DNA of 64,000 nt, taken from positions 1 to 64,000 of the forward strand of contig NZ_BAZK01000021.1 in the NCBI RefSeq assembly GCF_001310815.1, read 5' to 3'. Source of the stretch: Pseudovibrio denitrificans JCM 12308. GTDB taxonomy: Bacteria; Pseudomonadota; Alphaproteobacteria; Rhizobiales; Stappiaceae. The position numbers and the translations under genes were made by a program. The notes below the pieces were generated by a model. That model saw nothing but the letters and a program-made list of their open reading frames with translations, had not been told where the DNA came from and did not search any database. Shown here piece by piece: positions 1-13,783 of this stretch (its first letter is position 1; each line of letters starts with the position of its first letter).

Positions 1-17
1 CACAAAGAGGTTTAGCA

Positions 18-40
18 AAGCTCCCTCCCGGGAGCTTTTT
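18..40 (+). terminator. Rho-independent terminator of a gene left of the window
   Basis: AAGCTCCC (18-25) pairs with GGGAGCTT (30-37) around a four-base loop, followed by a T run and a T-rich stretch. It would end a plus-strand transcript entering from the left edge. Confidence 0.75.
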
Positions 41-531
41 GCTTTTGTATCTTGTGTCAACGCGCTGTAAGCAAATGAGCGTGCTTGAAAGTGCAATTTC
101 ACCTCTCTTAGCTCCTGCAAATACCTTTTCTATTTCTGATTAAGAGCTAGCATCTTAAACCGTCCATTTTTGAAAATGAATAACTTCTTATCGCTGGAAG
201 AAAACCTGCTCGAAACAAGTTGCAACAATGAGAGCGCCTAAATTTTCATTTCCGAATGCCGATGGGAAATTTGAAGCATCCCCGTATTCAAGTTGGATTG
301 GCTACAGAACTTATTGAACTATGTAGAGTTGATGATAAGTATTTTACAAAGAAATTTTCTAAACCATTATGTCGATAAAACTCCAAATTCACACATCTAA
401 GCAAGCTAAGTTAATCTAACTCGGCTGTTGCAGTATTTGCTAAATAGTATTCAGAAGTTGCTCTCCAAAATCCGCTCTCCCTATTGTCAGCACGCATATC
501 AATTTCATGCATGCTGCGACAGGAGCGACGG
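41..531. other. Intergenic region ahead of the MNIO operon
   Basis: About 490 AT-rich bases without a convincing gene. It must hold the promoter of the plus-strand operon, but I cannot pick out a clear -35/-10 pair. A 21-codon frame starts at 176 and contains one Cys, but has no ribosome binding site and I do not call it. Confidence 0.5.
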
Positions 532-1845
532 ATGCCACTAGGACAGTTTCAATCTCATCATGAAAACAGGCCTGGTGTGATTGCAGGCTTTCTCCCGCGG
601 GACTCAAAGCTTCTGGGGAAGTGGCTGGATCATATCAGTCAAAAATCCATATCAGCGTATGGAGATCAAATTGAACAAGGCTACTCTTTTCTCGAGCCTT
701 CAGTTCAAGCCCTCGCTTTTTTGCTGAATGAAGATGATCACCTTCATGGTCTGGTGAGCGAGATGATTGAGCAAGGCTGGCAAGTTCATCAAGAAGAAGA
801 ACCAAAAGTCGCGTATGGAATTAAATCCATCAACGATATGCTATGCGCCCTCAATTACATTATCAAACATGCACCAATCTTTGACCCGGACTTGCCGCAT
901 TCAGCATTTCCAATGTCAGGATTGTTTGTCTACATGATGTGGACACCCGCAGGGAACTTTGTCTTTAAAAACAAGCTTTTCAATGACGCCCTGAGAAACA
1001 TTCTTGATGCCTGGTGTGAGTTTTTAGACTCTCCGGCTTCACTTAGTGTCGTTGTTACCTCAAAGGATGGTTGGCTTTCTGAAGCCTCATGGAAAGCCAA
1101 CAGCCTGGATCAGTTCGTTACGAAAGAACAGATCGAGAAAGACCCTGTGCATTGGGGATACACATCGTTTAATGACTTCTTCCATCGTCAAATCATTGCG
1201 ATCTGCCGACCAATTGATGGGCCGGACAATGATCGAGTGATTACGTCTGCTAATGATGGCACCGTTTATCGCATTGCACGTAATGTAAAACTGGACGACG
1301 ATTTTGAGACGAAAGCCCAAAACTATTCTCTCGAGCAAATGCTTGATGGCAGCCCTCTCACAACGCGCTTTGTTGGCGGAGATGTCGTTCAAACGTTCCT
1401 GAGTGGTAACGACTATCACCGGTGGAGAGCTCCTATCGCCGGTAAGGTTGTCGAAGCACGAGTCGTAAACGGATATATGTTCTCTGAGCTTTACTCGGAA
1501 GGGTTTGATCCATCAGCTGGAACTAAGTCTCAAGGATACGAGGCGATGGTAAACACCAGGGCGCTTATCTTTATCGAGAGCGAAAGCCCTGCAATCGGTT
1601 GCGTGTGCATTATGCCCATCGGGATCACTGAAATCTCATCGATCTCAATTCAGGTCAAGGTAGGCGATAGAGTTGAAAAAGGACAAGAACTTGGGTGGTT
1701 CAGCTACGGTGGATCCTCAATGGCTCTTGTTTTTCAGCCTAAAGCCATCAAACAGTTTACGATTGTAAATCCTCTTTCAGATAACAACTCCAACAACGGG
1801 CCATTTGTCAGAGTTGGGGCACAAATTGCAATCTCCACTATTTAA
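532..1845 (+). CDS. Phosphatidylserine-decarboxylase-family pyruvoyl enzyme
   Basis: Predicted pyruvoyl-dependent decarboxylase of 437 residues. The C-terminal half carries the PSD core, and GGSS at residues 393-396 (in YGGSSMALVF) matches the self-cleavage site at which PSDs turn a Ser into the pyruvoyl cofactor. The long N-terminal part resembles the PSD-associated domain of soluble PSD-like enzymes, a group that in fungi includes tryptophan decarboxylases, so the substrate need not be phosphatidylserine. No signal peptide or membrane segment is seen. I choose ATG 532 because AGGAG (521-525) sits six bases upstream; ATG 511 and TTG 484 are in frame but lack such a site. It is the first gene of an operon with a ferritin-like protein, DUF692 and DUF2063 genes, which suggests it decarboxylates an amino acid or peptide in that pathway. 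That role is inference. Confidence 0.8.
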   Translation: MPLGQFQSHHENRPGVIAGFLPRDSKLLGKWLDHISQKSISAYGDQIEQGYSFLEPSVQALAFLLNEDDHLHGLVSEMIEQGWQVHQEEEPKVAYGIKSINDMLCALNYIIKHAPIFDPDLPHSAFPMSGLFVYMMWTPAGNFVFKNKLFNDALRNILDAWCEFLDSPASLSVVVTSKDGWLSEASWKANSLDQFVTKEQIEKDPVHWGYTSFNDFFHRQIIAICRPIDGPDNDRVITSANDGTVYRIARNVKLDDDFETKAQNYSLEQMLDGSPLTTRFVGGDVVQTFLSGNDYHRWRAPIAGKVVEARVVNGYMFSELYSEGFDPSAGTKSQGYEAMVNTRALIFIESESPAIGCVCIMPIGITEISSISIQVKVGDRVEKGQELGWFSYGGSSMALVFQPKAIKQFTIVNPLSDNNSNNGPFVRVGAQIAISTI

Positions 1846-1929
1846 GTCAGTCGTTGTTTTTCTCTTCAGCGCCTGGCGATAATGAAAACCAACGCCAGGT
1901 GTGCTTTCGCCAAACCGAAGGACACATCA

Positions 1930-3975
1930 ATGCAACACCCTCTCCTGGAACTGAATGATAGCGCCTGCTCGGCTTTGGTCGATGCTTGCACAGATCGCGA
2001 CCCCAAGTACATAGATGACGATCTGTCCTGTGTTAAAGCGATAGCTCAAGCAGCCATTAATGTAGAGTTGTTTACAATCCCCCTCTACATGACGGCGCTG
2101 TATTCAGTCCAAGGTACACATCAAATCAATAGTAAGGGCAGTAAGCTCTATGAAGGCCGCTGGTGGCCTGGCTCTGGTCCTGCCGCTGACCCTGACACAA
2201 CAAACAAGCAAGTCTTCAATAAAGTCTACAGCGTGTTTATCGAAGAGATGCTGCATCTACAACTCGCTTCAAACATGGCAAATTTGATTGGAGTAAAACC
2301 ATGCTTCACAAGTTCAGCCTTACAGAACAACGAGTTTGGATGGACCTGCTATAGGCATGGCAACACCATGATTCCCCACATTTTGGACTTCAATGATTGG
2401 ATAGATCACCCCGTCTTATGTTCATATGATCCCGACCTTATGAACTTAAAAGGTATGCAAGTGATCCTACGCGCCATGAACAAAGATCAGGCAAAACTGT
2501 TCATGGCAATTGAAGAGACCGTTGAGCTCGCCAAGCTTAATCTGGAAAATTCTGAAGTCCCCATACCTGATCCTCAGCCCGATGGTGAAAAGACCCGACC
2601 AAAGTACTTTGAACCTGCACCATTTGATTGGTTCAAAGCCAGCATGACGGAAGCAGATCTACCTCTGTTCGGCTCAATTGGGCATATGTACTTATGTTAC
2701 TGGAGTTATCTTGAAATTACCTATTCAGATGGAACCAGTTTGCTTGGGCGCCTCTTAGGTTTACAACGTGACCGGTTCAATAAGCCTGTACAAACGGCTT
2801 CACAATATCCGATGATTGATATGAACCTGGAAGAGCTGGACAGCCTGAAGCTCAAGCTCATTAACAATATCAATGCAATCACTGATCAGGGTGAAGGCGG
2901 GGATGTTGTCCAAGACATTGTGAGGGTTTGGGGCTTCAAGCCATGGGCCTACACACTTGCAAAAGGCTCAGAAAATCCTCTTGGCTGCGTGAAGGAAAAG
3001 TTCCAGCCTAACAAAGAAGCGTTGGTTCAAGATTATCCTCATTACGATGATCAAGGCAAACAGCTCCCAACGTTATCTGGTATAGCTCGCGCCAGATCTG
3101 ATGCAGCGGATAAAGACCACTTCGAACTATTTTCGGAAGTGCTTCAACTTGTACAAAAGCCCGATTACATGACATGGGATACATGGCATGAAAAGCATAT
3201 CTGGAAGCCAGATATGCTTGGTACAAATGGAGCCCCCAACGTGCCATGTGTTGAAGACATCGCAACAGCCCTCAACAACCTGAAAGACAATCCTAATAGC
3301 TATCAAATCTTAAGCCAAGCTGCGGTTGGGACGATTAAGGGCATCACTACAGTCTTGAACAGCTATTGGAACAATAGCGATAACACCGAGTTCCCCTCTC
3401 CTGCCATGGATGGTTCTGGTGATCGGGTTTCTATATGCTGGGCTGTGACCGGCAAAGTGCCAGATCTTGTGTCAGGTATTGCTTCACAAAAGGAGCATGT
3501 TCTCTACCATGCTTGTCAGGGTATGGCCTTAAACGGTTCAGATGCCGAGACTTGTGCAAGCGTTTTAGCTTACCATAGCTGTAAAGGTTCAAACGAATGC
3601 AAGACGCAGGGTGGGTGCGGTTTCGTTCAAAGTGCCAGCGGTGGAGGCAGCTGTGGAGGTTCTGTTGCCAAAGGCCTTAAGAGCGCACCAGCCGACAACA
3701 AATGTGGTGGCTTTGGAGGATGTGCAGTACCAATTTCAGCCTCTCAGCTTTACCCGAAACAAGACGATGATTGCTATGAGATGCAACTCTACAAATTTGG
3801 ACCTGCTCCTGAGCATACCTCAGAGCCTTTGAAGCAGCATCTCCCCTACTCTGAAGGGGATACTGTTTACGGCATAGCGTGGCAAGCTTACTGCCATGCG
3901 AAAGGGCTCGATCCTGAAGCGAACAAAGCACCAAAAGCCAACGATTTGCGCCTTGCAATGCCACCAAGCACCTAA
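1930..3975 (+). CDS. Ferritin-like protein with Cys-rich C-terminal domain
   Basis: A 681-residue protein in two parts. The N-terminal part looks like the ferritin-like domain found in VioB-type (iminophenyl-pyruvate dimer synthase) proteins: an ELFTIPLYMTA helix and an FIEEMLHLQLA helix supply the Glu and ExxH residues expected to bind a di-metal centre. The C-terminal part has ten Cys between residues 529 and 655, including CKGSNECKTQGGCG (551-564) and CGGFGGCAVP (592-601), set in Gly/Ser-rich sequence. Such Cys motifs beside DUF692 genes are typical of MNIO substrates, so this tail may be modified by the product of the next gene. ATG 1930 follows AAGGA by about seven bases; ATG 1882 is an alternative adding 16 residues. 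No signal peptide is seen with either start. The physiological reaction is unknown. Confidence 0.72.
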   Translation: MQHPLLELNDSACSALVDACTDRDPKYIDDDLSCVKAIAQAAINVELFTIPLYMTALYSVQGTHQINSKGSKLYEGRWWPGSGPAADPDTTNKQVFNKVYSVFIEEMLHLQLASNMANLIGVKPCFTSSALQNNEFGWTCYRHGNTMIPHILDFNDWIDHPVLCSYDPDLMNLKGMQVILRAMNKDQAKLFMAIEETVELAKLNLENSEVPIPDPQPDGEKTRPKYFEPAPFDWFKASMTEADLPLFGSIGHMYLCYWSYLEITYSDGTSLLGRLLGLQRDRFNKPVQTASQYPMIDMNLEELDSLKLKLINNINAITDQGEGGDVVQDIVRVWGFKPWAYTLAKGSENPLGCVKEKFQPNKEALVQDYPHYDDQGKQLPTLSGIARARSDAADKDHFELFSEVLQLVQKPDYMTWDTWHEKHIWKPDMLGTNGAPNVPCVEDIATALNNLKDNPNSYQILSQAAVGTIKGITTVLNSYWNNSDNTEFPSPAMDGSGDRVSICWAVTGKVPDLVSGIASQKEHVLYHACQGMALNGSDAETCASVLAYHSCKGSNECKTQGGCGFVQSASGGGSCGGSVAKGLKSAPADNKCGGFGGCAVPISASQLYPKQDDDCYEMQLYKFGPAPEHTSEPLKQHLPYSEGDTVYGIAWQAYCHAKGLDPEANKAPKANDLRLAMPPST

Positions 3976-3985
3976 ACGGGATCTA

Positions 3986-4933
3986 ATGAGTTCATCTACT
4001 ATATCAAAACAGGGAGCCGCAGGTTCAGCGGCTTCTGAGTTGAACGAAAATAAAGATTATCTAGGATTTGGGGTTGGCCTGCGTTCTCAGCACTTCCCCG
4101 AGATTATGGCTTGCGAGAGTTTACCTGTCGACTGGTTTGAGATCATAAGTGAAAACTTCATCGACAACCACGGATATGGTCGCCATGTTCTCAAGGAGCT
4201 CCGTAGCCGATGTCCGATTGTGATGCATGGTGTCTCCCTCAATCTGGGATCTTCAGACCCACTGAACTGGGAGTATCTTGAAAAGCTCAAAGAGCTGGCT
4301 GATTTTGTCCAACCATCATGGATCTCTGATCACCTGTGCTGGACAGGCATTCTTGGGCACAACACTCATGATCTCCTACCAATGCCTTTGACGGAAGAGA
4401 GCCTCAATCATGTATCCGAGAGGGTGCTGCAAGTTCAGACCTTCCTTGGACAACCAATCCTTCTTGAGAACCCATCCACGTATCTTGAGTTTCGACAAAA
4501 TGAGCTCAGCGAGTGGGAGTTCATGTCGTTACTCGTCAAAAAAACAGACTGCCTTTTGTTGCTTGATGTAAACAATGTCTTCGTCTCCTCCTTCAATCAT
4601 GGCTATGATCCGCTGGAGTATCTGAGGAACATTCCTCACAGCAGCATCCAACAAGTGCATTTAGCTGGTCCTACACGGGCTGGTAACTGTCTGTTGGATA
4701 CCCACGATCAACCTGTCCCAGATCAAGTCTGGGAGCTTTACAAAGTGCTCCTAGAGAAAACCGGCCCTGTCTCCACGCTATTGGAATGGGACGCAAACAT
4801 TCCGAGCTTTTCTGAGGTTGTCGCTGAGTTGAACAAGGCACGGCTCATTTTTGAAGGAAAGCCTTACCAACAACTAGAGAATGTCGACATCAATCAAGCG
4901 TCTGGTGCATTCTCGAGCCCGGTTGTTCGATAA
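3986..4933 (+). CDS. DUF692 multinuclear non-heme iron oxygenase (MNIO, BufB-like)
   Basis: A 315-residue TIM-barrel protein of the DUF692/MNIO family, which uses two or three irons to rewrite Cys (and some other) residues in ribosomal peptides. Expected metal ligands are visible in order: H36 (LRSQHF), E56 (ISENF), H81 (VMHG), D115/H116 (SDHLCW), E161/N162 (LENPS), D194/N197 (LLDVNNVF), H225 (VHLAG), D238/H240 (LDTHD) and E267/D269 (LEWDAN). The set appears complete, so an active enzyme is likely. ATG 3986 follows the ferritin-like gene by ten bases; the longer open frame to 3896 would overlap that gene. The DUF2063 gene starts within its stop codon. The pairing with DUF2063 is that of bufferin-type clusters. 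The substrate is inferred to be the Cys-rich tail encoded just upstream, since no small precursor gene is seen. Confidence 0.9.
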   Translation: MSSSTISKQGAAGSAASELNENKDYLGFGVGLRSQHFPEIMACESLPVDWFEIISENFIDNHGYGRHVLKELRSRCPIVMHGVSLNLGSSDPLNWEYLEKLKELADFVQPSWISDHLCWTGILGHNTHDLLPMPLTEESLNHVSERVLQVQTFLGQPILLENPSTYLEFRQNELSEWEFMSLLVKKTDCLLLLDVNNVFVSSFNHGYDPLEYLRNIPHSSIQQVHLAGPTRAGNCLLDTHDQPVPDQVWELYKVLLEKTGPVSTLLEWDANIPSFSEVVAELNKARLIFEGKPYQQLENVDINQASGAFSSPVVR

Positions 4934-5784
4934 TGAAGGAAAGTTGTCTAAAGAAAGATATCCAACTAAGGCAGCTACAAAACTGGCTACAGGAGGTATT
5001 GATAAACCGTGGTGACCTCTATCAAAAACTCTTAGGAGCTCAGCACCAAACAAACTTTACCCTCGAAGAGGCCATAAAAGAGACGGAACAGTTTCCTGCA
5101 ATCGAGCGCATCAACATTTATGCGTCAGGATACATTATGCGCTTGGTCGAAGCGTTAAAGGCAGAGTATCCGCTGCTGTGTAAGGTCATGGGAGATGAAG
5201 TCTTTGAAGGATTCGCAAAGGCATACATTGTCACCCATCCTTCGCGTTATACCAGTTTATATAAGTTAGGAGCTAAACTCCCTGAGTTTCTGGAGGAAAC
5301 GCAACCGAAGGGAGCAAACTGCCCAGATCAAATCGGCTTATTTAAGATCCCAGCTGAGTTGGCGCGATATGAGAGAACGCAGGCAGAGATATTGCTCCAT
5401 CATGGTCTTGAAGAGTATTTTTATTATCCTTCAGAAACGTCGATCACTTCTCTGATATCAATCCACTCTGAGCTATTACAAGCATCGCCATGCCTAAGAG
5501 TTCTTAAGCTAGAGTACCCAATCCGTACACTGGCCATGTCACTTCATTTGAACGACACTGTGACAACACCACAGCGAACTGAGAACTGGGTAGCTCTCAC
5601 GCGAAAAGACTACAAGATCGTTTCGTTGCAAATTAATGATTGGCAGGCTGAGTTGTTAGAAGCTTTGAAGTCTCCAGCGCCCGTTTATCGAGCGCTGGAA
5701 AATGTTAAATCTGCAAATGTAGCTGAGGTTTTGCTTTGGCTTCCAACAGCGCTAGATTTTGGATTGGTCTACTACCCAAAATAG
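4933..5784 (+). CDS. DUF2063 protein, MNIO partner (BufC-like)
   Basis: A 283-residue protein. Residues ~10-115 match the DUF2063 N-terminal domain in pattern: LQNWL near the start, then a segment with ERINIYASGYIMRL, then EYPLLCKVMGDEVFEGFAKAY and HPSRYTSL. In DUF692 clusters this family is the usual companion and is thought to bind and present the substrate leader to the oxygenase. Its ATG overlaps the stop of the DUF692 gene (TAATG at 4931-4935), so the two are translationally coupled. No signal peptide. The remaining ~165 residues are less conserved and likely form the second domain typical of BufC-like proteins. The stop codon lies in a hairpin that ends the operon. Confidence 0.85.
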   Translation: MKESCLKKDIQLRQLQNWLQEVLINRGDLYQKLLGAQHQTNFTLEEAIKETEQFPAIERINIYASGYIMRLVEALKAEYPLLCKVMGDEVFEGFAKAYIVTHPSRYTSLYKLGAKLPEFLEETQPKGANCPDQIGLFKIPAELARYERTQAEILLHHGLEEYFYYPSETSITSLISIHSELLQASPCLRVLKLEYPIRTLAMSLHLNDTVTTPQRTENWVALTRKDYKIVSLQINDWQAELLEALKSPAPVYRALENVKSANVAEVLLWLPTALDFGLVYYPK

Positions 5785-5790
5785 ACCAAT
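5763..5790. terminator. Hairpin between convergent operons
   Basis: ATTGGTCTA (5763-5771) and TAGACCAAT (5782-5790) form a perfect nine-base inverted repeat with a ten-base loop. The right arm contains the DUF2063 stop codon TAG, and the facing gene ends at 5796. No T run follows on either strand, so classical intrinsic termination is uncertain; it may act in both directions or protect the 3' ends. Confidence 0.5.
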
Positions 5791-5795
5791 CTCAA

Positions 5796-6716
5796 CTACA
5801 TGAACAAAGCATAGTTTTGGTCGCCCAGTCTGTATGGAATGATTTGCGACACACCTGTAACCGCGGTGATAGTTGCCTCAGTTGTCCACCCCATACAATC
5901 GCCATGGACGCGATTTAAAGTCACCTCACCATTACTTGCCATATACGTCATAAAGTAAGGGTCACCTGGCCCAACCATAAATGGATGTACAATATCCAGC
6001 TCCTGATCATCCTTCAGATGCAGATGAGATCCAACTTCGTTGGTCCCTTCGCTTAAATCATCCGAGAAATGATCAATATTGACGTTCGGTTTCCATGTAT
6101 TTGTTTTCAGGAAGAAATTCTCTTTACCCCAAGTAAAGAAGGCAAAACGTGTCCAGCCTTTAGCCCATTGGTGAGCCCAGACATTTTCTACGACAAGCGG
6201 AGGGCTTTTCCCTTCAGACTTTGCCGTGGCTGAGATCGTCCAGGTATTAACGGAACCATCTGTATGGTTGTAGCCAAACACAAAATTCTGTCCCAGATCG
6301 ACAGCGCATTTTACTTCGCTCAGGTTCGTCGTATAGGGATAGCGTGTATGATAGAAATGCAAAGGATATTCGGATTTTAGATCCTTGGTTAAAGGGAAGA
6401 AATACATGTGCCCGTTTTTAGACTGATAGGCGAGCAAATGAGGCTTGTTCATCATGTAAAACGGCTGAATTGAATCCCAATCTTTGCCTAGCTCAAATGT
6501 ATTGGGCACTTGCTTGATCCAAGGTTCTGCTTCAAGAAGCTCAAATGTGTCACAGTTTCCGCTGCCCTTATGGTATCCGACGAGGATCATGGTGCCATAA
6601 TTGTCGTAGGTTGTCAGGGCGTCATAGGATTGACTGAATGCTGGCTGTCCGACCTCAGACCATTCCATTACGCCAGCTTGTTGAGTTGGCGTCATCGTGT
6701 AAAGAGTTGCAGTCAT
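5796..6716 (-). CDS. Repeat protein, probably a beta-propeller, function unknown
   Basis: A 306-residue protein that I do not recognise by name. It shows about six loosely repeated units of 40-50 residues, each with a Trp or aromatic start and an F/Y-x-x-Y...G core (for example LLAYQSKNGHMYFF, FVFGYNHTDGSVNTW, YFMTYMASNGEVTLNRV), as in small beta-propeller or tachylectin-like sugar-binding proteins. No signal peptide or membrane segment is evident. It is the last gene of the seven-gene minus-strand operon, following the metallophosphoesterase gene by about a dozen bases. A lectin-like or binding role is only a guess from the repeat pattern. Confidence 0.7.
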   Translation of the reverse strand: MTATLYTMTPTQQAGVMEWSEVGQPAFSQSYDALTTYDNYGTMILVGYHKGSGNCDTFELLEAEPWIKQVPNTFELGKDWDSIQPFYMMNKPHLLAYQSKNGHMYFFPLTKDLKSEYPLHFYHTRYPYTTNLSEVKCAVDLGQNFVFGYNHTDGSVNTWTISATAKSEGKSPPLVVENVWAHQWAKGWTRFAFFTWGKENFFLKTNTWKPNVNIDHFSDDLSEGTNEVGSHLHLKDDQELDIVHPFMVGPGDPYFMTYMASNGEVTLNRVHGDCMGWTTEATITAVTGVSQIIPYRLGDQNYALFM

Positions 6717-6728
6717 TATTCCCGTCTC

Positions 6729-8240
6729 CTAGCGTATCTCTTCGCTGTAAATTTTGAGGGGAGCCGGATCAGCGCCGGCGACTTGATAATAAGTGCAGTG
6801 GGCAGGCTGCCCTGCCCCATTCAATTTCAAAATCTCAAATCCGCGATTGTACCACTGCTCAACCATCTGGAGTTGTGTGCCCGGTATGATTGGAACCGGG
6901 TTCACTTCTGCATAAGGCGTTTCCCTCTCCTGTACCGGAATCGCTGAATGACCGATGCAGCGCCCCTTTGCGAGTGTCTTTAAAGGATTGTCTGGTTCTG
7001 AGCTATTAGGAGGCCAGCCAGTGGGCCTGAAGTTATCTTCAAAGATACAAAGGTTATGCTCATGCCCCCAAAACCATGCTGCAACCTTATCAAAATATGG
7101 ACCGAAGGCTTGCCATAGCGCAGTGTTCACTCCGGGCCGATTGATGTCGCCGTCATAGTCTGGAGCTACACCAACAGTAAAGCGGCCAGAGTAAAGCTGA
7201 TGGTGGCCGAATAAGAGCGTACGTCCAGAGAATTGGCTGAGGTGGTGACGGTGCCAATCCACTTCATCAGAGCGCACATATACCATAGGTGGTGGATTCT
7301 GAGGGTCATATGCATCACGAGGGGTAACGTGGAGCTCTCCCAAAGCCTCATCCAACTTGTCACCCGCCACTTTCAGATAGTGTCCATGATATCCAGTATC
7401 CATGCCAAGGATTTGCCAGGCTTCGTCCTCGGTGGTGAGGCGGAAATAGCTTGCTTGTTGCTGCTGATGGGGATGGTTTACCAGCCGACCTTCATCAAGA
7501 CACCTGAAGTACGGAAATGCACCACAAAAATACTCATGATTGCCTGGAAGCGTATAGACGGGCGGACGGTGTCCAGTGGCTGTAAAAGCTGCATTAAGGA
7601 GGCCTAAGAAGTAGGTATCAAACTCTTGTTCTGTACCAGAATAGTAGACATCACCTACGTGCAGGATGGCATCTGGTTTGAATGAGAGTGCAGACGTTAG
7701 AACAGCAGCAGCCACATCCGTCCCTGTTCCGATATCACCAATCAAGGCAATGGTGGCATCTGAAGGAAGTTGCCAGCTCACGCAACCATAGTCATAGCTC
7801 CCTCCTCCATATTCAGGATCTCGCCAACTCCGGTAATCTAACTTGCCGCCGGAGTGTCCCGGATAGGCCCAGAAGTATTTGACATACTCATCAAACATCT
7901 GTTGCCAGGCCGGATTGCCAAAGCTGAAATCATCAAGCTGCGCCTGCATCTGCGCTTCAATTTGCTTATTACCGCTAAAAACTGCGTGTGCTTTATGATG
8001 CGTCAGATAAGCGAGGTATGCTGCTGCTTCCGGGTCATTCGCATCTCGAGTGGTCGGAACCGCAGGTGCCTTTCCTGCCAACGCCTTATGTGCATATGCA
8101 TCCACCCCATCCAGCATCGGGTGAGCGATTGGAACACCTTGGCGAGAGTCATGATCTGTTAGTCTTGAAACAACATTAGCTGCTGCTGATTTCAACCGAG
8201 CCAGATCCGCATTCTCATAGTTGACAATGGGTTGCATCAT
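6729..8240 (-). CDS. Metallophosphoesterase (calcineurin/purple-acid-phosphatase superfamily)
   Basis: A 503-residue protein with the full set of metallophosphoesterase motifs: GDIG (IALIGDIGTGTD), GDVYYSG, GNHE (YTLPGNHEYF), GHH (LLFGHHQLYSG) and GHEH (FWGHEHN). These bind two metal ions and hydrolyse phosphoesters; the substrate cannot be told. The N-terminal ~150 residues before the first motif are not recognised. ATG 8240 overlaps the upstream stop as ATGA, the pattern used throughout this operon; a GTG-type extension to 8315 would overlap the upstream gene by 79 bases. There is no signal peptide, so it should be cytoplasmic, unlike most purple acid phosphatases. Confidence 0.85.
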   Translation of the reverse strand: MMQPIVNYENADLARLKSAAANVVSRLTDHDSRQGVPIAHPMLDGVDAYAHKALAGKAPAVPTTRDANDPEAAAYLAYLTHHKAHAVFSGNKQIEAQMQAQLDDFSFGNPAWQQMFDEYVKYFWAYPGHSGGKLDYRSWRDPEYGGGSYDYGCVSWQLPSDATIALIGDIGTGTDVAAAVLTSALSFKPDAILHVGDVYYSGTEQEFDTYFLGLLNAAFTATGHRPPVYTLPGNHEYFCGAFPYFRCLDEGRLVNHPHQQQQASYFRLTTEDEAWQILGMDTGYHGHYLKVAGDKLDEALGELHVTPRDAYDPQNPPPMVYVRSDEVDWHRHHLSQFSGRTLLFGHHQLYSGRFTVGVAPDYDGDINRPGVNTALWQAFGPYFDKVAAWFWGHEHNLCIFEDNFRPTGWPPNSSEPDNPLKTLAKGRCIGHSAIPVQERETPYAEVNPVPIIPGTQLQMVEQWYNRGFEILKLNGAGQPAHCTYYQVAGADPAPLKIYSEEIR

Positions 8241-8986
8241 ATATCCAAGGTTCGATGAAGCTGAATGTTGAGACTGTTGGGTGCTGTCATGGGTATCCCA
8301 GTCCAGTCCTCCCACAGCCCATGCTCAAGTTCATAATGCTCAGAGGTTCGATCCAGCCACGTTGCGGTGATGCTCTTCAAAGGAGCAAAGCAATTTGGAT
8401 TACCCTCTCCTTTGCCCCAAAGCGCCCAAGCAACAATGTAGCTTTCCCCTACACACAACAATCCGCCTTCTAAACCACTTGCTGACTGCAAGCTCCTTGC
8501 CCATTGAAGCGTTTGAGTTCGAAACAATTCGGGAGAGATGTTGTGGTTGCGTGCACCAATATAGTGCACCACATCACCGGACATCCAATCGGCTGGAGCA
8601 TCTATCAGGAAGTAAGGTGTTTCAGGCTGCAGATCCTTCTCAGGGAGTTGGATAGGAAACTCAGCAGCACTGCGAGACGTATCGTAAAGATCATCGTGCA
8701 AATTCGTATAGCAGCGAACAGCAACACATTTAAATGCGTCGTGATAAGTTTGCTGCGAAGTCCAGAACATCAACGCGCTTTGATCGGGCACTGTTGGTGG
8801 TTTGCCCTCATGTTTCGGCAACGAAGGTATGTATGCATGCAAGCCTGCATTGGGCTGTAACAATGAGCAGCCCGGTACAAACACAGATCCCAGAAACTCT
8901 TCAAACTGTTGCTGAGTTTTATCTTCGCTCCGAAATCCGCGCCAGACATGCACAGCATCGGGAGGAACTTTACGAGTTTCATTCAT
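8237..8986 (-). CDS. Unrecognised protein, paralogue of the gene just upstream
   Basis: About 249 residues; not recognised. It aligns end to end with the next upstream product (8979-9719): shared features include PPDAV-x-WRGFR at the N-terminus, LMFWTSQQTYHDAFK against ILFWNSQQTYWDGFK, FLIDAPADWMSGD against YLIDKSQDWMKGK, GGLLCVGESYI against GGIICVGADYI, and LWEDWTGI against LWDDWPGM near the end. The pair clearly arose by tandem duplication but has diverged strongly. The start is set at ATG 8986, which overlaps the upstream stop by eight bases; TTG 8992 would be the only longer option nearby. No signal peptide. Function unknown; the conserved Trp/Asp positions could form an enzyme or binding pocket. 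Confidence 0.8.
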   Translation of the reverse strand: MNETRKVPPDAVHVWRGFRSEDKTQQQFEEFLGSVFVPGCSLLQPNAGLHAYIPSLPKHEGKPPTVPDQSALMFWTSQQTYHDAFKCVAVRCYTNLHDDLYDTSRSAAEFPIQLPEKDLQPETPYFLIDAPADWMSGDVVHYIGARNHNISPELFRTQTLQWARSLQSASGLEGGLLCVGESYIVAWALWGKGEGNPNCFAPLKSITATWLDRTSEHYELEHGLWEDWTGIPMTAPNSLNIQLHRTLDI

Positions 8987-9719
8987 TCTCAAAAGCCCTC
9001 GTGAACTGCATATTGTAAGTGTCTCCGGGCTTTACTTTCATGCCTGGCCAATCGTCCCAAAGGGCTGCTTGCGGTGGCAGTGTTGTCGGAACTGGTTCAA
9101 AGACGTGAGACCAGTCACAATGTGATTGCAACTGCTCAAGTCCAGGATCTGTGCCATCTCCCAATTCCCAATACGTGATATAGTCCGCGCCGACGCAGAT
9201 GATGCCGCCCTGTATCTTTCCACGCACTTGCGTTTCAACAAGGATACTTTGCAGGTTCTGAAACAACTCTGCTGTATTAGCACCAGCTGGTAAACCGCCC
9301 ACCAGGTGCCTTATCTTGCCTTTCATCCAGTCCTGAGACTTGTCGATAAGGTAGTAGCACTGGTCCAACACCAAATCTCCATCAAACAAGATTGGGAAAT
9401 CAGCACCACTTTCCGGGGTGTAGCAACCACCGTGGGTCAGTGTGTAAGTACGGCCTGCCAGTGTCTTGAATCCATCCCAATAGGTCTGCTGGGAGTTCCA
9501 AAACAAAATTGCAGTTTCATCAGGAACTGTAGCTGGCTTTTGGGCCATGCCGCATGGAATGGTGGGAACATATGTGTCCAGCCCATTCTTGATCTGCATC
9601 TGCACGGTTGAGGGAATGAATGTTTCTCCAAGTCTTTGGAAAAACTCGTCTTGTGGAAGCGTTGCCTGGCGAAATCCTCGCCATATCCGGACAGCATCAG
9701 GAGGTATCTGGTACGACAT
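8979..9719 (-). CDS. Unrecognised protein, first copy of a tandem paralogue pair
   Basis: A 246-residue soluble protein that I cannot assign to a family. Its conserved blocks are those listed for its neighbour: PPDAVRIWRGFR at residues 6-17, FWNSQQTYWDGFK near residue 75, YLIDKSQDWMKG near 125, GGIICVGADYITYWELG near 175 and LWDDWPG near 220. The gene begins three bases after the uracil-DNA-glycosylase-like gene and overlaps the second copy by eight bases, so it is tightly coupled in the operon. The two copies may form a heterodimer; that is inference. Confidence 0.8.
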   Translation of the reverse strand: MSYQIPPDAVRIWRGFRQATLPQDEFFQRLGETFIPSTVQMQIKNGLDTYVPTIPCGMAQKPATVPDETAILFWNSQQTYWDGFKTLAGRTYTLTHGGCYTPESGADFPILFDGDLVLDQCYYLIDKSQDWMKGKIRHLVGGLPAGANTAELFQNLQSILVETQVRGKIQGGIICVGADYITYWELGDGTDPGLEQLQSHCDWSHVFEPVPTTLPPQAALWDDWPGMKVKPGDTYNMQFTRAFENE

Positions 9720-9722
9720 GGC

Positions 9723-11447
9723 TTATGCCCCTCCCGACAGGATCTGATCTGTCACCTGATTTAGATAACCAATTGGGAGTGGTTTTTCCTCTGGTTTGCC
9801 ATAGGGGCAACCAAGAGGAAATTTCCAATGTTCATTGACACAGAACTGGCATGGACCAGCTGATCGAGACAGGTAGTCTCCTACATCATTCCATGTCAAC
9901 TTGCCCTCTCGATACATGTATCCGAGCACGTCAGCCATGGTGGCATGCGCATCGTAGAAGCTCTTTTCCAGGTCAGGCCACGCATCAGGCCAACTGGTCT
10001 TTATGACCTTCAGAATTTGTGGTGCATTTTCTGCAGAGAACTGGAAGGCATCATATCCATCGCCATTCCCAGGAACATATGTAATCTCGGGATTGGTCTC
10101 CAGATAATGCACACATTCAGGAGACTTTTCTTTCAGTCCAGAAAGCCATTCAGGGCTTAGCCGGAACTGAGGCAGGAAGTTTGTGTCGTAAGAAAAATGC
10201 GGTGTTACAACGATCCGGGTGTTGATGGCATAAGGTTCACCATCAATCTCAGTAGAGAACTCAAACATGGTCGGATTGTCATTCTCTGTAGTGAGAGAAA
10301 ACAGTGTGAATGCGTTGTCATAAGGATCAGTCGGTAGTTCAGGTGAGCGCTTTATATGTTCCTTGAAGGCATCTCGGAACATATCCCAGGAACTCTCCCC
10401 CACCAGAAACAGAACTGCTGGGTTCGTCATAACCAACTGCTTGAGCGCCCACGCATTTTTAGTCACACAGTTGGAGATGATTGTGTCTTCACTCTCCTCT
10501 GATCCACCCAAGAAGGCAGGTTTCCAATGAGGAGATGCACAAGCCACCATATCTAACTGGCAGACATCTTCACCGATTTTCAGGTCAGCACTGCGATGAC
10601 CTTTAGCTCGTAAATAGTCTGAGAACTCATTGAGGCTTGGAACAAACTGCTCATAGTAAGTCTGTAGCTCCTGATAAACTTCGAGCTTAACACCAGCAGG
10701 CATTTGCATCTTTGAGATGATTATGTCGCCTTTTTCGAATTTGTTATCCGGGCTATCGTGATTGAAAAGCAGCACATAACGCGGCGTTCCGGTAGGACGC
10801 TCTAATGTAAGCGTAACTTCCGCACCGCTTTCATATTCAATGATCACGTCGTAAGGAGAGCCTGCATGGTCTCTCTCAGCAGATTTAATCACGCCATCTT
10901 CGGCTGCGATAATCTGATCAGCTGTAACAGTTGTATCTGCTGTCGGGGTAACGGAACTTCCTGAAATCAGGTATTTTTTGACCTCTTCAAAGGCAAAGCG
11001 TTCCTGATAAACATTGCGATAGCGATAGTAGTAGGCATACTTATCATAGCCATCAGTTCCATCATCACTGGTAAAATCAGGGTAGGCCCAGGACGTCCCA
11101 GTAATGCCCGGACTGAACGCAGTCAGGTTTGGATTAATCCCTAGAGTCATGATTGGCGCTTTTCGGCAACCATCCATAATCTCGCCATTCGGGAAACCAG
11201 AGTTGCGGGTAACTCCTTTCACCCATGGATACATCTCTGGTGTCCCGACAGGATCTGCTGTTTTGGGGAAGTCTGACAAAAAATCATAGGTTGGATATGG
11301 GCCGTAAACTTGATCCTTGGGATTTGAAGGCCAGAAGAATGAACAGGTGCCGCAAGGACGAACATTAAAGACCAGCTCAATCTCCATGGGGTTCTTTGGC
11401 TGGCGCGGACTGGTTTGCCGCGGTGGCGTATAAGAACTGGTCATCAT
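9723..11447 (-). CDS. Uracil-DNA-glycosylase-fold protein with terminal Cys pairs
   Basis: A 574-residue protein. A central pattern resembles the UDG superfamily: MTLGINPNLTAF near residue 100 (compare the GINPG-type first motif), then LDMVACASPHWKP, NPAVLFLVGESSWDMF and VVTPHFSYDTNFLP (a His-containing late motif). Cys32-x-x-Cys35 near the start and Cys533-x-x-Cys536 plus Cys547 near the end could bind iron-sulfur or zinc, as family 4-type UDGs bind a 4Fe-4S cluster. It is much longer than ordinary UDGs (~200-250 residues), with an insert between the first and second motifs. Whether it cuts a base from DNA, acts on a nucleotide, or only keeps the fold is unknown. Its ATG overlaps the upstream stop as ATGA. 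Confidence 0.6.
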   Translation of the reverse strand: MMTSSYTPPRQTSPRQPKNPMEIELVFNVRPCGTCSFFWPSNPKDQVYGPYPTYDFLSDFPKTADPVGTPEMYPWVKGVTRNSGFPNGEIMDGCRKAPIMTLGINPNLTAFSPGITGTSWAYPDFTSDDGTDGYDKYAYYYRYRNVYQERFAFEEVKKYLISGSSVTPTADTTVTADQIIAAEDGVIKSAERDHAGSPYDVIIEYESGAEVTLTLERPTGTPRYVLLFNHDSPDNKFEKGDIIISKMQMPAGVKLEVYQELQTYYEQFVPSLNEFSDYLRAKGHRSADLKIGEDVCQLDMVACASPHWKPAFLGGSEESEDTIISNCVTKNAWALKQLVMTNPAVLFLVGESSWDMFRDAFKEHIKRSPELPTDPYDNAFTLFSLTTENDNPTMFEFSTEIDGEPYAINTRIVVTPHFSYDTNFLPQFRLSPEWLSGLKEKSPECVHYLETNPEITYVPGNGDGYDAFQFSAENAPQILKVIKTSWPDAWPDLEKSFYDAHATMADVLGYMYREGKLTWNDVGDYLSRSAGPCQFCVNEHWKFPLGCPYGKPEEKPLPIGYLNQVTDQILSGGA

Positions 11448-12607
11448 TTGCCCTTTCTAGTGGCTGCTTGTCCCTTCAAATCTCTATCAGCTACAATGGT
11501 TCCCCAGGTGAGCAGAGCACCATTCATGGAAGTATAGAAGCCGTAGTGCTCATAGATCTCACTGGACCAGTTCTCACGCAGCTCTTGCGGGATTGGCTTG
11601 CCAGAAGGCGTCTGAGTTGGAATTACAGTGTCAGACATATTGCGAACGAACACATAATCAACGTGATACTCTCCGGCAGCATAACCAACGACAGCATCAT
11701 CCATCTCCAGCGCACTATACTGCTCGGTATCGTCCCCATCTGAGATGAAGTAATAGTCAGTCGTGAGGAGCGGAATACCTTTCTTATCAAGACCTTTAGG
11801 TGCCCCTAGATCTTCAAGCGCCGCGTTCATCATGTCTGCAACAGTGAACTGCCCTGCCCAGTCAGGATTACCTTTGTCTGAATCGTAAATTGCCTGACAC
11901 AGAAGGTATTCTAGGTAAGGCTGCGTCACGACGGAACTCAGCTTGAAGAGAAGGTTTTTCTCTATAGTTGAGTTCATTGAAAGATCTGGATACCAGCTGG
12001 TGCAAGCTACTGTTTTGTCGTTCAGTCCAGAGCTCGTGTTCTCTGGCAGTTTTAGTTTGATTTTGCCGGTGTTCGTGATTGCTGCATCGCCCAGCTTCTC
12101 ACTTATGGTTGCTCCGCCAGCAGTGCCTATTGAGTAAAGTCGTTCAGGAGATGCTTCCTTGAGGACGAAGTGCACCATAGCGATCAAACCATCTGCATAG
12201 GGTGGATGCGAAAGATGTGCGTCTGATTTCCAAAGCAGTATCTTCAAATCTATTCCGGCGGCATTTTTGACAGTAACAACCCGATAGAAGCCCCACAGGT
12301 TGTACGCTCCTTTCACATACTCATCGTTGGACCGTAAAAACCAACCCTTTCGGAACTCATCAGATGAGACATAAGCCTCCTTGTCAGAGGACACGAACAC
12401 GTGGTCCAGCGCGTTCCATTCAGTGTCTGTCCAGGTCATCACAACAATGTCCACCTTTGGGAGTGGCGCATTCTTGTCTGGATTGCCGATATCTACGTTT
12501 ACAGGAGCACTTTGCCCCACCTTCGCCCAGTCGATAACCGGCAGCGGAGGCAGAGCTCCTGGGCTGGTACAAGCTACACTCCGAGAGTCCGTGTAACGGT
12601 TTTTCAT
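11444..12607 (-). CDS. Nucleoside-phosphorylase-superfamily protein
   Basis: A 387-residue protein with the PNP/UDP-phosphorylase pattern: DIVVMTWTDTEWNAL at the start of the fold, YSIGTAGGATISEKLGDAAIT in the middle (phosphate/nucleoside loop), and ALEMDDAVVGYAA followed by VRNMSD near the end (the E-M-D ribose site and the Asp that binds the base). Members split nucleosides by phosphorolysis or hydrolysis (MTA/SAH nucleosidases, or antiphage and effector variants). It is longer than housekeeping enzymes because of an ~50-residue N-terminal extension and inserts. AGGAGAGG stands seven bases before ATG 12607. It is followed directly by the UDG-like gene, so two base- or nucleoside-handling folds are co-expressed. 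Confidence 0.75.
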   Translation of the reverse strand: MKNRYTDSRSVACTSPGALPPLPVIDWAKVGQSAPVNVDIGNPDKNAPLPKVDIVVMTWTDTEWNALDHVFVSSDKEAYVSSDEFRKGWFLRSNDEYVKGAYNLWGFYRVVTVKNAAGIDLKILLWKSDAHLSHPPYADGLIAMVHFVLKEASPERLYSIGTAGGATISEKLGDAAITNTGKIKLKLPENTSSGLNDKTVACTSWYPDLSMNSTIEKNLLFKLSSVVTQPYLEYLLCQAIYDSDKGNPDWAGQFTVADMMNAALEDLGAPKGLDKKGIPLLTTDYYFISDGDDTEQYSALEMDDAVVGYAAGEYHVDYVFVRNMSDTVIPTQTPSGKPIPQELRENWSSEIYEHYGFYTSMNGALLTWGTIVADRDLKGQAATRKGK

Positions 12608-12634
12608 AGCTATGCCTCTCCTAAGCGTTTTGAT

Positions 12635-13783
12635 TTATGAAACGGGGACCATAAAAAACTGGTGCTGATAAGTCCGTGTAGTGCGCCATGATCTTGCTTC
12701 ATCGCCGTAGAGTTCCGGTAGTCGGGCAATCAGATTTGTAGAGATCTGCGAGCGCATGATGTTAAAACAGGAGAGCACACGTAAGTCTGTCATTGCTGCT
12801 ACGGCCTTGCCAAATGTTGGCCAGGATGCTTCTGCTGGGCCGTTCCACATCAAGTCCAGATCTGTCATGATCTCAGTGTATTTGGCATCAAATGCATTCA
12901 GATTGCGTTTGACTGCCTCTCCCTCTGGATCAAGTTCAAGAAGTTTCTCGTAGCCATCGCGTGGAACAGCAAGTACATTGGTCACGTTCGGCCAGGGTAT
13001 TTTGTGGCCTTTAAAAAATTCAGTTTCTGTCTCAGGTGTTAGTTTGGGTTCCGGAGTTGGAACGAGAAGCTGCGCGCCATAGTAGATTTCCGCGAAACGT
13101 GCGTAATGGCTCCCCTCCCCATCAAAGTTCTGCGCATAAAGATCTTGAGCATTGCTTCCTTCACCCTGCTCAATGATTTCATCAATACCATCGAGAAACT
13201 GCTGAACAGGCGTTCGTTTATCCTCTATGGAAAAAATGGTGAAACCGATGTTGTCACCAACTTGGTTGGGATAAGTGTTGGCTGGAGCTGTGAGTACCTT
13301 TTGGGCAGTAGCATTGATCTCAACCACATTTGCTGTGATTGCAGCCTTAATTTTTGAGTAGAATGCTCCTATTGAAGGATACTTCTCGTCTCTATATTTT
13401 GCCGCTAACAGACTGATTGGCGTTTCAAGACGTAAGAAGTTCTCCAGCTGGTTCTTACTTAACTGCGCAAAAACAACCGGCAGATCAGGCTCCACACCAC
13501 CAGGCAATCCTTCAGAAGGAGAAAGTGGATCCAGTTTCTTTATTGAAGGCTTTTCTCCGAGGGCTGCCAATATGTTACAACCGATGGCCATATGAACCAT
13601 CTCTTCCATCACGACAGAACGGATCAGGTTGTAGGTTGTATAATTTTGAACTTCCAGGGAAAACATCGCCGACAAGTAGAGCGGCAATGTTGCATGCTCT
13701 AAAGCAACAGCAGACTGAAGCGATGCTTTAATCCATTCAAGGTCTCGATCCTGCGGGGGAACTGATAGCAGCTGCTGGTCCAC
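12635..13783 (-). CDS. Ferritin-like domain protein (VioB-type family)
   Basis: A 382-residue protein that begins with a ferritin-like domain: ALEHATLPLYLSAMFS (residues ~25-45) and VVMEEMVHMAIGCNILAALG carry the Glu, His and ExxH residues of a di-iron or other di-metal site. It shares this layout with the larger ferritin-like protein of the facing operon (E-x-F/A-T-I/L-PLY and EEM-x-H), but lacks the Cys-rich tail. The remaining ~200 residues are helical-looking and not recognised. The start is GTG 13783, preceded by GGGAGG six bases away. It is the first gene of the minus-strand operon, so transcription must start in the AT-rich stretch to its right. The reaction is unknown; oxidative coupling as in VioB is one option. 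Confidence 0.78.
   Translation of the reverse strand: MDQQLLSVPPQDRDLEWIKASLQSAVALEHATLPLYLSAMFSLEVQNYTTYNLIRSVVMEEMVHMAIGCNILAALGEKPSIKKLDPLSPSEGLPGGVEPDLPVVFAQLSKNQLENFLRLETPISLLAAKYRDEKYPSIGAFYSKIKAAITANVVEINATAQKVLTAPANTYPNQVGDNIGFTIFSIEDKRTPVQQFLDGIDEIIEQGEGSNAQDLYAQNFDGEGSHYARFAEIYYGAQLLVPTPEPKLTPETETEFFKGHKIPWPNVTNVLAVPRDGYEKLLELDPEGEAVKRNLNAFDAKYTEIMTDLDLMWNGPAEASWPTFGKAVAAMTDLRVLSCFNIMRSQISTNLIARLPELYGDEARSWRTTRTYQHQFFMVPVS

Follow-up and report, generated by a model that had tools for sequence, protein, structure and literature searches.

The window analyzed here, a 64,000-nucleotide stretch of contig NZ_BAZK01000021.1 from the alphaproteobacterium Pseudovibrio denitrificans JCM 12308, contains near its left end an apparent operon in which a large ferritin-like protein with a cysteine-rich tail is encoded directly ahead of a multinuclear non-heme iron-dependent oxidative enzyme (MNIO; DUF692) and its DUF2063-type partner (Table 1). 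A preliminary description of this DNA had listed these three genes, preceded by a pyruvoyl decarboxylase, as a four-gene operon, and all four were found at the positions it gave with matches to the corresponding Pfam families. The operon gaps are 36, 10, -1 and 11 bp, with the ferritin-like/MNIO/DUF2063 trio tightly packed (10 and -1 bp), and the overlap reported between the last two genes is present as TAATG at 4931-4935, where the MNIO stop overlaps the DUF2063 start. The open reading frame (ORF) of the ferritin-like protein encodes 697 residues from the ATG at 1882 or 681 residues from the ATG at 1930, the latter being the likely start because it aligns with the start of a homologue from another Pseudovibrio (locus L024), in agreement with the ~680 residues originally given. 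Of its 21 cysteines, nine lie within residues 545-631 and ten between residues 545 and 671, the same number as in the ten-cysteine tail that had been described.

Table 1. Genes, domains and motifs of the apparent operon, with positions in the window.
Feature	Position	Strand	Evidence and remarks
PSD-like (phosphatidylserine-decarboxylase-like) pyruvoyl enzyme	532..1845	+	Pfam PF12588 + PF02666; gene 1 of the apparent operon
Ferritin-like protein with Cys tail	1882..3975	+	PF12902, 65 bits (cut-off 22.3); proposed protein substrate; homologues at 10 further loci
PF12902 ferritin-like domain, residues 56-343	2047..2910	+	Pfam and alignment
Cys tail, residues 545-631, 9 Cys	3514..3774	+	Alignments A4 and A1; disorder in the model
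BufA2-like core HSCKGSNECKTQGGCG, residues 565-580, C-x5-C-x5-C	3574..3621	+	Profile-profile match, spacing test
Second repeat NKCGGFGGCAVPI, residues 606-618, C-x5-C	3697..3735	+	Alignment
MNIO (DUF692/PF05114) enzyme, 315 aa	3986..4933	+	PF05114, 350 bits (cut-off 25)
DUF2063 (PME-type 1) partner, 283 aa	4933..5784	+	PF09836, 61.1 bits (cut-off 27.2)

An AlphaFold2 model of the ferritin-like protein, built with seven sequences, is mediocre overall (mean predicted local distance difference test score, pLDDT, of 55.4). Its ferritin domain matches CC_0557 of Caulobacter (3HL1) with a Z score of 17.7 (root-mean-square deviation 4.2, 241 residues aligned); the next match has a Z of 2.9, and matches below 3 were disregarded. 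The E, ExxH and GEG motifs of PF12902 proteins such as CC_0557 are kept along with the fold, and the invariant residues Glu62, Glu122, His125, Glu211 and Glu338 are candidate metal-site ligands. What distinguishes the window protein is the tail, as 3HL1 is a chain of 317 residues and 13 relatives that we classify as tail-less lack the tail motif and have no MNIO in the flanks examined. In the model the pLDDT is below 50 for residues 498-628, with block means of 22-36 for residues 541-630, which would fit a flexible arm serving as substrate, although a thin alignment can also lower pLDDT. The model ends in a small domain of low confidence made up of the final ~75 residues. This extension past the tail (residues 621-697, window positions 3742-3972) has no Pfam match, and in the homologues read, except that of L021, it ends in PPST or PPAT.

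The part of the protein whose conservation accompanies the MNIO is the tail, and this conservation is selective for the tail cysteines. In an alignment of seven rows that includes the window protein (A4), seven of the nine tail cysteines (residues 545-631) are invariant versus none of the 12 elsewhere (Fisher p = 3e-4), while in a second seven-row alignment (A1), with a Pseudoalteromonas protein in place of the IMG/VR protein, the count is six of nine because Cys558 is absent there. Invariant columns number 19 of 76 in the tail, 34 of 298 in the ferritin domain, 10 of 195 in the linker and 1 of 77 in the C-terminal extension. The most divergent homologue, from a proteobacterium of another class (L021), shares only 27% identity with the window protein over the ferritin domain and 15% over the linker, yet tail identity reaches 39%; its tail keeps both repeats, and its gene is followed by an MNIO gene and then by a DUF2063 gene.

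The ferritin-like protein has few homologues. Counting the window's own, they were found in 3 of the 385 genomes searched for the class, in 3 of 398 genomes in a search of the phylum (one being a weak 23-bit match) and in 4 of 16 genomes of the genus, with others coming from two Pseudoalteromonas plasmid records, one IMG/VR contig and one locus in a search of genome contigs able to detect only close relatives. The closest named match is from Pseudovibrio sp. Alg231-02 (94% over the full length). With L003 left out of the count, there are 11 tail-bearing loci from a small set of seven lineages (four loci from Pseudovibrio, two from Pseudoalteromonas and five single ones), the two Pseudoalteromonas plasmid records, L072 and L011, being near-copies (770 of 775 residues). 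The MNIO gene is the next gene in all 11, its match beginning 14-54 bases past the tail-bearing ORF (205 in the IMG/VR locus, L056), and a DUF2063 gene is present in 10 of them. By contrast, no MNIO was seen near the tail-less PF12902 genes at any of 13 loci within the flanks examined, and thus by lineage the linkage is 7 of 7 versus 0 of 13. These controls comprise six PF12902 matches with ~1.5 kb per side and seven of 162 plasmid records, chosen for taxonomic spread, with 5 kb, the flank length therefore differing among them; one control, L004, belongs to the window itself, being its other PF12902 gene, and the operon MNIO, ~8 kb away, falls outside its flank. The preliminary description had pointed to the neighborhoods of homologues as a check on its proposal, and they support it, except that the pyruvoyl decarboxylase it had listed in the operon is present in only 4 of the 11 loci, all from Pseudovibrio. 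We therefore reject the PSD-like gene as a core member and regard it as probably accessory. The conserved unit is best explained as three genes encoding the ferritin-like protein, a dedicated MNIO, and a DUF2063 partner with a recognition element (RRE) of the type found in pathways for ribosomally synthesized and post-translationally modified peptides (RiPPs). The L056 copy (3429-6573 of IMGVR_UViG_3300041409_000508, 71 kb) is a ferritin-like and MNIO pair on a viral contig, with a terminase/portal block on one side and an HNH/helicase block on the other (PHROGs), and it is either phage-borne or the product of an assembly join.

The MNIO itself resembles bufferin maturases. It passes the NCBIfam MNIO_BufB model (350.8 bits, cut-off 310), and in a tree of 32 rows, 29 of them distinct (7 of 9 BufA2-linked and 12 of 13 BufA1-linked), the ten tail-linked MNIOs form one group (94/87) that joins the nine BufA2-linked enzymes at 100/100, apart from the 13 BufA1-linked ones, which include the genome's other MNIO. 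The tree is unrooted, with a midpoint used for drawing only; the two bufferin classes were assigned by reading the precursor sequences, and L036, L049, L058 and L062, which yielded no MNIO, were excluded. His81, Glu161-Asn162, Asp194, Asn196, His225, Asp238, His240, Glu267 and Asp269 are invariant in eight aligned MNIOs (one of them BufA1-linked) and are candidates for iron ligands and catalytic residues. The DUF2063 partner scores below threshold with the NCBIfam RRE/HvfC model (38.8 bits of the 142 needed). The only PDB matches of its structural model (pLDDT 77.2) at E <= 0.001 are 8hci_A, 8hi7_A and 3dee; we take the first two to be the TglHI complex, with chain A as the partner TglI. The third is NGO1945, with a TM score of 0.72 by target, which is described as DUF2063 plus RRE in the main text of Antoine et al. 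2025 (PMC12452194). Judged from its Pfam match and its model, the partner belongs to PME-type 1, with a DUF2063 domain and a predicted RRE-type domain.

The tail resembles the modules of one class of bufferin, BufA2 (NF050166; BUF_6/12Cys; the 'Cys-Lys' captophorins, with BufB2/BufC2). The cysteine gap seen most often is C-x5-C, both among the 27 gaps of eight tails, two of them from Pseudovibrio, and among the 34 gaps of 11 BufA2 modules; it is found in none of nine BufA1 modules. A profile of the tails matches a BufA2 profile with a probability of 86% over 19 columns, around C-x-G-x-N-x-C-K-x-Q-x-x-C, versus 12% for BufA1, and the tail has the BufA2 register of C-x5-C spacing with a C-x-G-x-N-x-C core. 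In both systems an MNIO-DUF2063 pair lies immediately downstream of the gene for the substrate, and their MNIOs group together. They differ in that the substrate here would be a protein of 681-697 residues with a PF12902 domain and an N-terminus that is not signal-like, in that the lysine following the cysteine is not kept in the tails (K, R, S, A, G, N or Q), and in that the tail scores far below the model cut-off and the MNIO has no Asp at the reported specificity site. The likeness is at the level of short motifs. The tail would act as a BufA2 module does, but as the protein falls short of the model cut-off, has no signal-like N-terminus and is ~690 residues long, we do not class it as BufA2.

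A separate small precursor was also looked for. No ORF of 30-150 residues with a bufferin-like cysteine motif is present in positions 1-8000 of the window or, at L011, L012, L013, L020 and L021, in the 1.5 kb flanking the operon, and the intergenic gaps given above leave no room for one inside the operon; the view that there is no small precursor gene thus held at the six loci checked. A possible hidden precursor, the ORF at 428-538 (37 residues, four cysteines), was rejected as it lacks the bufferin motif; in L024 the Cys-Cys pair of this ORF is gone, with one or two of its other cysteines still readable. A stand-alone version of the tail was not seen either, as the tail profile found three ferritin fusions and three weak matches (two with internal stops) in 299 genomes, solely the two Pseudoalteromonas fusions in plasmids, and nothing in phages. 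Elsewhere in the same genome there is a canonical bufferin-1 cluster (G000:C6; L001, 1054-3181) consisting of a DUF2282 precursor (88.8 bits, cut-off 22.4), an MNIO and a DUF2063 protein (79.2 bits, cut-off 27.2).

We propose, with a probability of about 0.62, that the MNIO/DUF2063 pair modifies the built-in tail of the ferritin-like protein, converting its cysteines to thiooxazoles that would form an arm binding copper or some other soft metal. In several bacteria, marine ones among them, a ferritin-like chain carries the type of cysteine-rich segment that MNIOs normally modify on small copper-binding peptides and is adjoined by an MNIO gene, which would mean that the metal-binding group is installed on an entire protein and not on a peptide. 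The idea that the tail is the MNIO substrate was already put forward in the preliminary description, and it is well supported, by comparison only, through the linkage at 11 of 11 loci, the selective conservation of the cysteines, the grouping of the MNIO, the BufA2 register and the lack of a small precursor. The modification itself is inferred, as are the cysteines it affects and their number, the thiooxazole product, the metal bound, the cell compartment and the role in physiology. In the proposed mechanism, the DUF2063/RRE partner would bind the flexible tail and the MNIO would oxidize cysteines within the repeated N-x-C-x3-G-G-C-[G/A] motifs, most likely giving 5-thiooxazoles at a cost of about 4 Da each. 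The modified tail would stay on the protein as a chelating arm next to the ferritin-type helical domain with its own set of conserved Glu and His residues, and the arm could either sequester the metal or present it to that domain. The choice of thiooxazoles and of copper or a soft metal is based on the characterized MNIO-PME1 pairs, since all of those covered in the main text of Gadgil et al. 2026 (PMC13097082) install 5-thiooxazoles, which are marked by a loss of 4 Da, absorbance at ~305 nm and, generally, copper binding. According to the same text, FonBC prefers a small residue following the cysteine; the GGC-G and GGC-A sites of the tail fit this preference, and the other cysteine of each pair mostly precedes a larger residue. 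The ferritin-like protein is probably cytoplasmic. Its maximum 12-residue hydropathy within the first 35 residues is 0.8, and the values are -0.33 to 1.63 for five homologues and 1.70-2.19 for four bufferins; this comparison uses hydropathy only, with no signal-peptide predictor, and the value of 1.63 is that of L020, in which the first 35 residues extend into the conserved first ferritin helix.

Several observations weigh against this proposal. The evidence is wholly comparative, and no metal-responsive regulator was seen, although none was specifically sought. The NCBIfam model for BufA2 (NF050166, cut-off 60 bits) does not match the window protein, the best of seven queries reaching 12 bits. 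A hidden Markov model (HMM) of the 11 BufA2 modules gives the window tail 5.4 bits, a score reached by 5 of 500 shuffled sequences; with the same HMM three of eight tails (L013, L021 and L056) beat all 500 shuffles, while for L020 64 of the 500 score as high, and an HMM of BufA1 also places L056 above 499 of 500 shuffles. In the reverse direction, the tail profile retrieved no BufA2 from 299 genomes at E <= 0.01, with up to 16 candidates scored per genome. The main text of PMC13097082 reports that the MNIOs of Cys-Lys (BufA2) systems carry an Asp after the E-W-D motif. At the residue past E-W-D, which we equate with the published specificity site, three BufA2-linked enzymes have this Asp versus Ala, Gly or Ser in nine tail-linked MNIOs. 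In L056 the place of the DUF2063 gene is taken by an ORF of 53 codons that by eye resembles a DUF2063 start, with no Pfam match, and no DUF2063 gene was found elsewhere on that contig. Finally, PME-type 1 partners are said in the main text of PMC12452194 to go with precursors that have signal peptides, and here such a partner occurs despite a ferritin-like protein whose N-terminus is not signal-like. Because of that N-terminus, the system would be an exception to the published correlation.

Three other explanations of the locus have to be considered. The tail might be modified by the MNIO to something other than 5-thiooxazole, giving a redox or catalytic group that is bound to the protein and serves its ferritin-like domain, an alternative already raised in the preliminary description. 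Such a group would suit a tail that is attached to a probable metal-binding domain and not to a secreted peptide, PF12902 relatives that adjoin oxidative systems (LodA-like in L026, a GMC oxidoreductase in L065 and L067) and an MNIO specificity site unlike that reported for BufA2 maturases. We nevertheless consider it unlikely, as the enzyme passes the bufferin-maturase model and groups with BufA2-linked MNIOs, and as the characterized MNIO-PME1 pairs in the main text of PMC13097082 make 5-thiooxazole. It seems slightly less probable again that the tail is an ordinary, unmodified metal-binding segment and that the co-transcribed MNIO pair acts in trans, for example on the bufferin of G000:C6. 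The genome does encode that DUF2282 precursor (L001), and unmodified cysteine-rich segments often bind metal, but the G000:C6 bufferin has an MNIO and a DUF2063 protein of its own, the operon MNIO stands apart from the 13 BufA1-linked enzymes in the tree, and pure co-transcription is at odds with a tail-MNIO linkage that extends across seven lineages and is unseen around 13 tail-less relatives in the flanks examined.

The remaining explanation treats the ferritin-like part as a giant leader or carrier from which the modified tail would be excised as a free metallophore peptide. Leaders are normal in RiPP precursors and the tail is flexible in the model; nonetheless, the tail is internal, with 66 more residues past its last cysteine, and its release would therefore need two cuts. 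The scan of window genes, which extended to position 13783, showed no Pfam-recognized protease. The ferritin-like domain also keeps 34 of 298 columns invariant, candidate metal ligands included, and we regard this as the most improbable of the explanations. Modification of the retained tail to a thiooxazole arm is the reading that we favor.

At the gathering threshold there are no RNA elements in positions 1-8000 of the window; promoter-like sites (7 versus 9.5 in shuffles) and terminator-like sites (10 versus 6.3, standard deviation 2.9) are uninformative, and PADLOC found no defense genes among 10 proteins. Beside the operon lies a minus-strand block (5796-13783) in which only a metallophosphatase and the second, tail-less PF12902 gene have Pfam matches. 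Parts of this block also flank the operon, by eye, in the Pseudovibrio loci L022, L023 and L024, these parts being the metallophosphatase, a 306-residue gene, the paralogues at 8237-8992 and 8979-9719 and pieces of a 574-residue gene; the stretches compared there did not reach the second PF12902 gene. Other tail-less PF12902 genes are located near oxidative systems, including a LodA-like quinoprotein (PF17990; L026, 2-2226), a GMC oxidoreductase (L065 and L067) and the ebo operon (L069), and PF12902 proteins may be general helpers of oxidative or cofactor systems.

As pointed out by Antoine et al. (2025), MNIOs may modify whole proteins, and the main text of that paper (PMC12452194) lists bufferins fused to cytochrome c/FGE-sulfatase, MerC and EF-hand domains. 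These fusions, and the TIGR04222 proteins discussed with them, likewise have a cysteine module on a larger protein as a proposed MNIO substrate; in that text the TIGR04222 proteins are membrane proteins and the fusion partners are not ferritin-like. Hence the earlier statement that the present arrangement is not covered by the usual RiPP picture was too strong, since both protein substrates and fusions of bufferins have been published before. A ferritin-like substrate, on the other hand, is apparently unreported: none of the main texts of PMC12452194, PMC13097082 and PMC12538549 contains the word 'ferritin', and no literature linking MNIO/DUF692 to such a substrate was found in a search whose reach did not extend to supplements and most subscription papers.

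The three genes represent a compact system for testing the maturation of real proteins by MNIOs, a question still debated in the field. They also offer a natural case that departs from the published rule linking DUF2063-type partners to precursors with signal peptides. It is conceivable, though doubtful at present, that a cytoplasmic ferritin-type metalloprotein gains a working copper or soft-metal site through MNIO oxidation of cysteines in its own bufferin-like arm, in which case MNIO/DUF2063 pairs would mature enzyme cofactors as well as metallophore peptides. If the tail is indeed thiooxazole-modified, thiooxazoles would become candidate metal sites of enzymes, beyond their part in secreted and periplasmic metal buffers.

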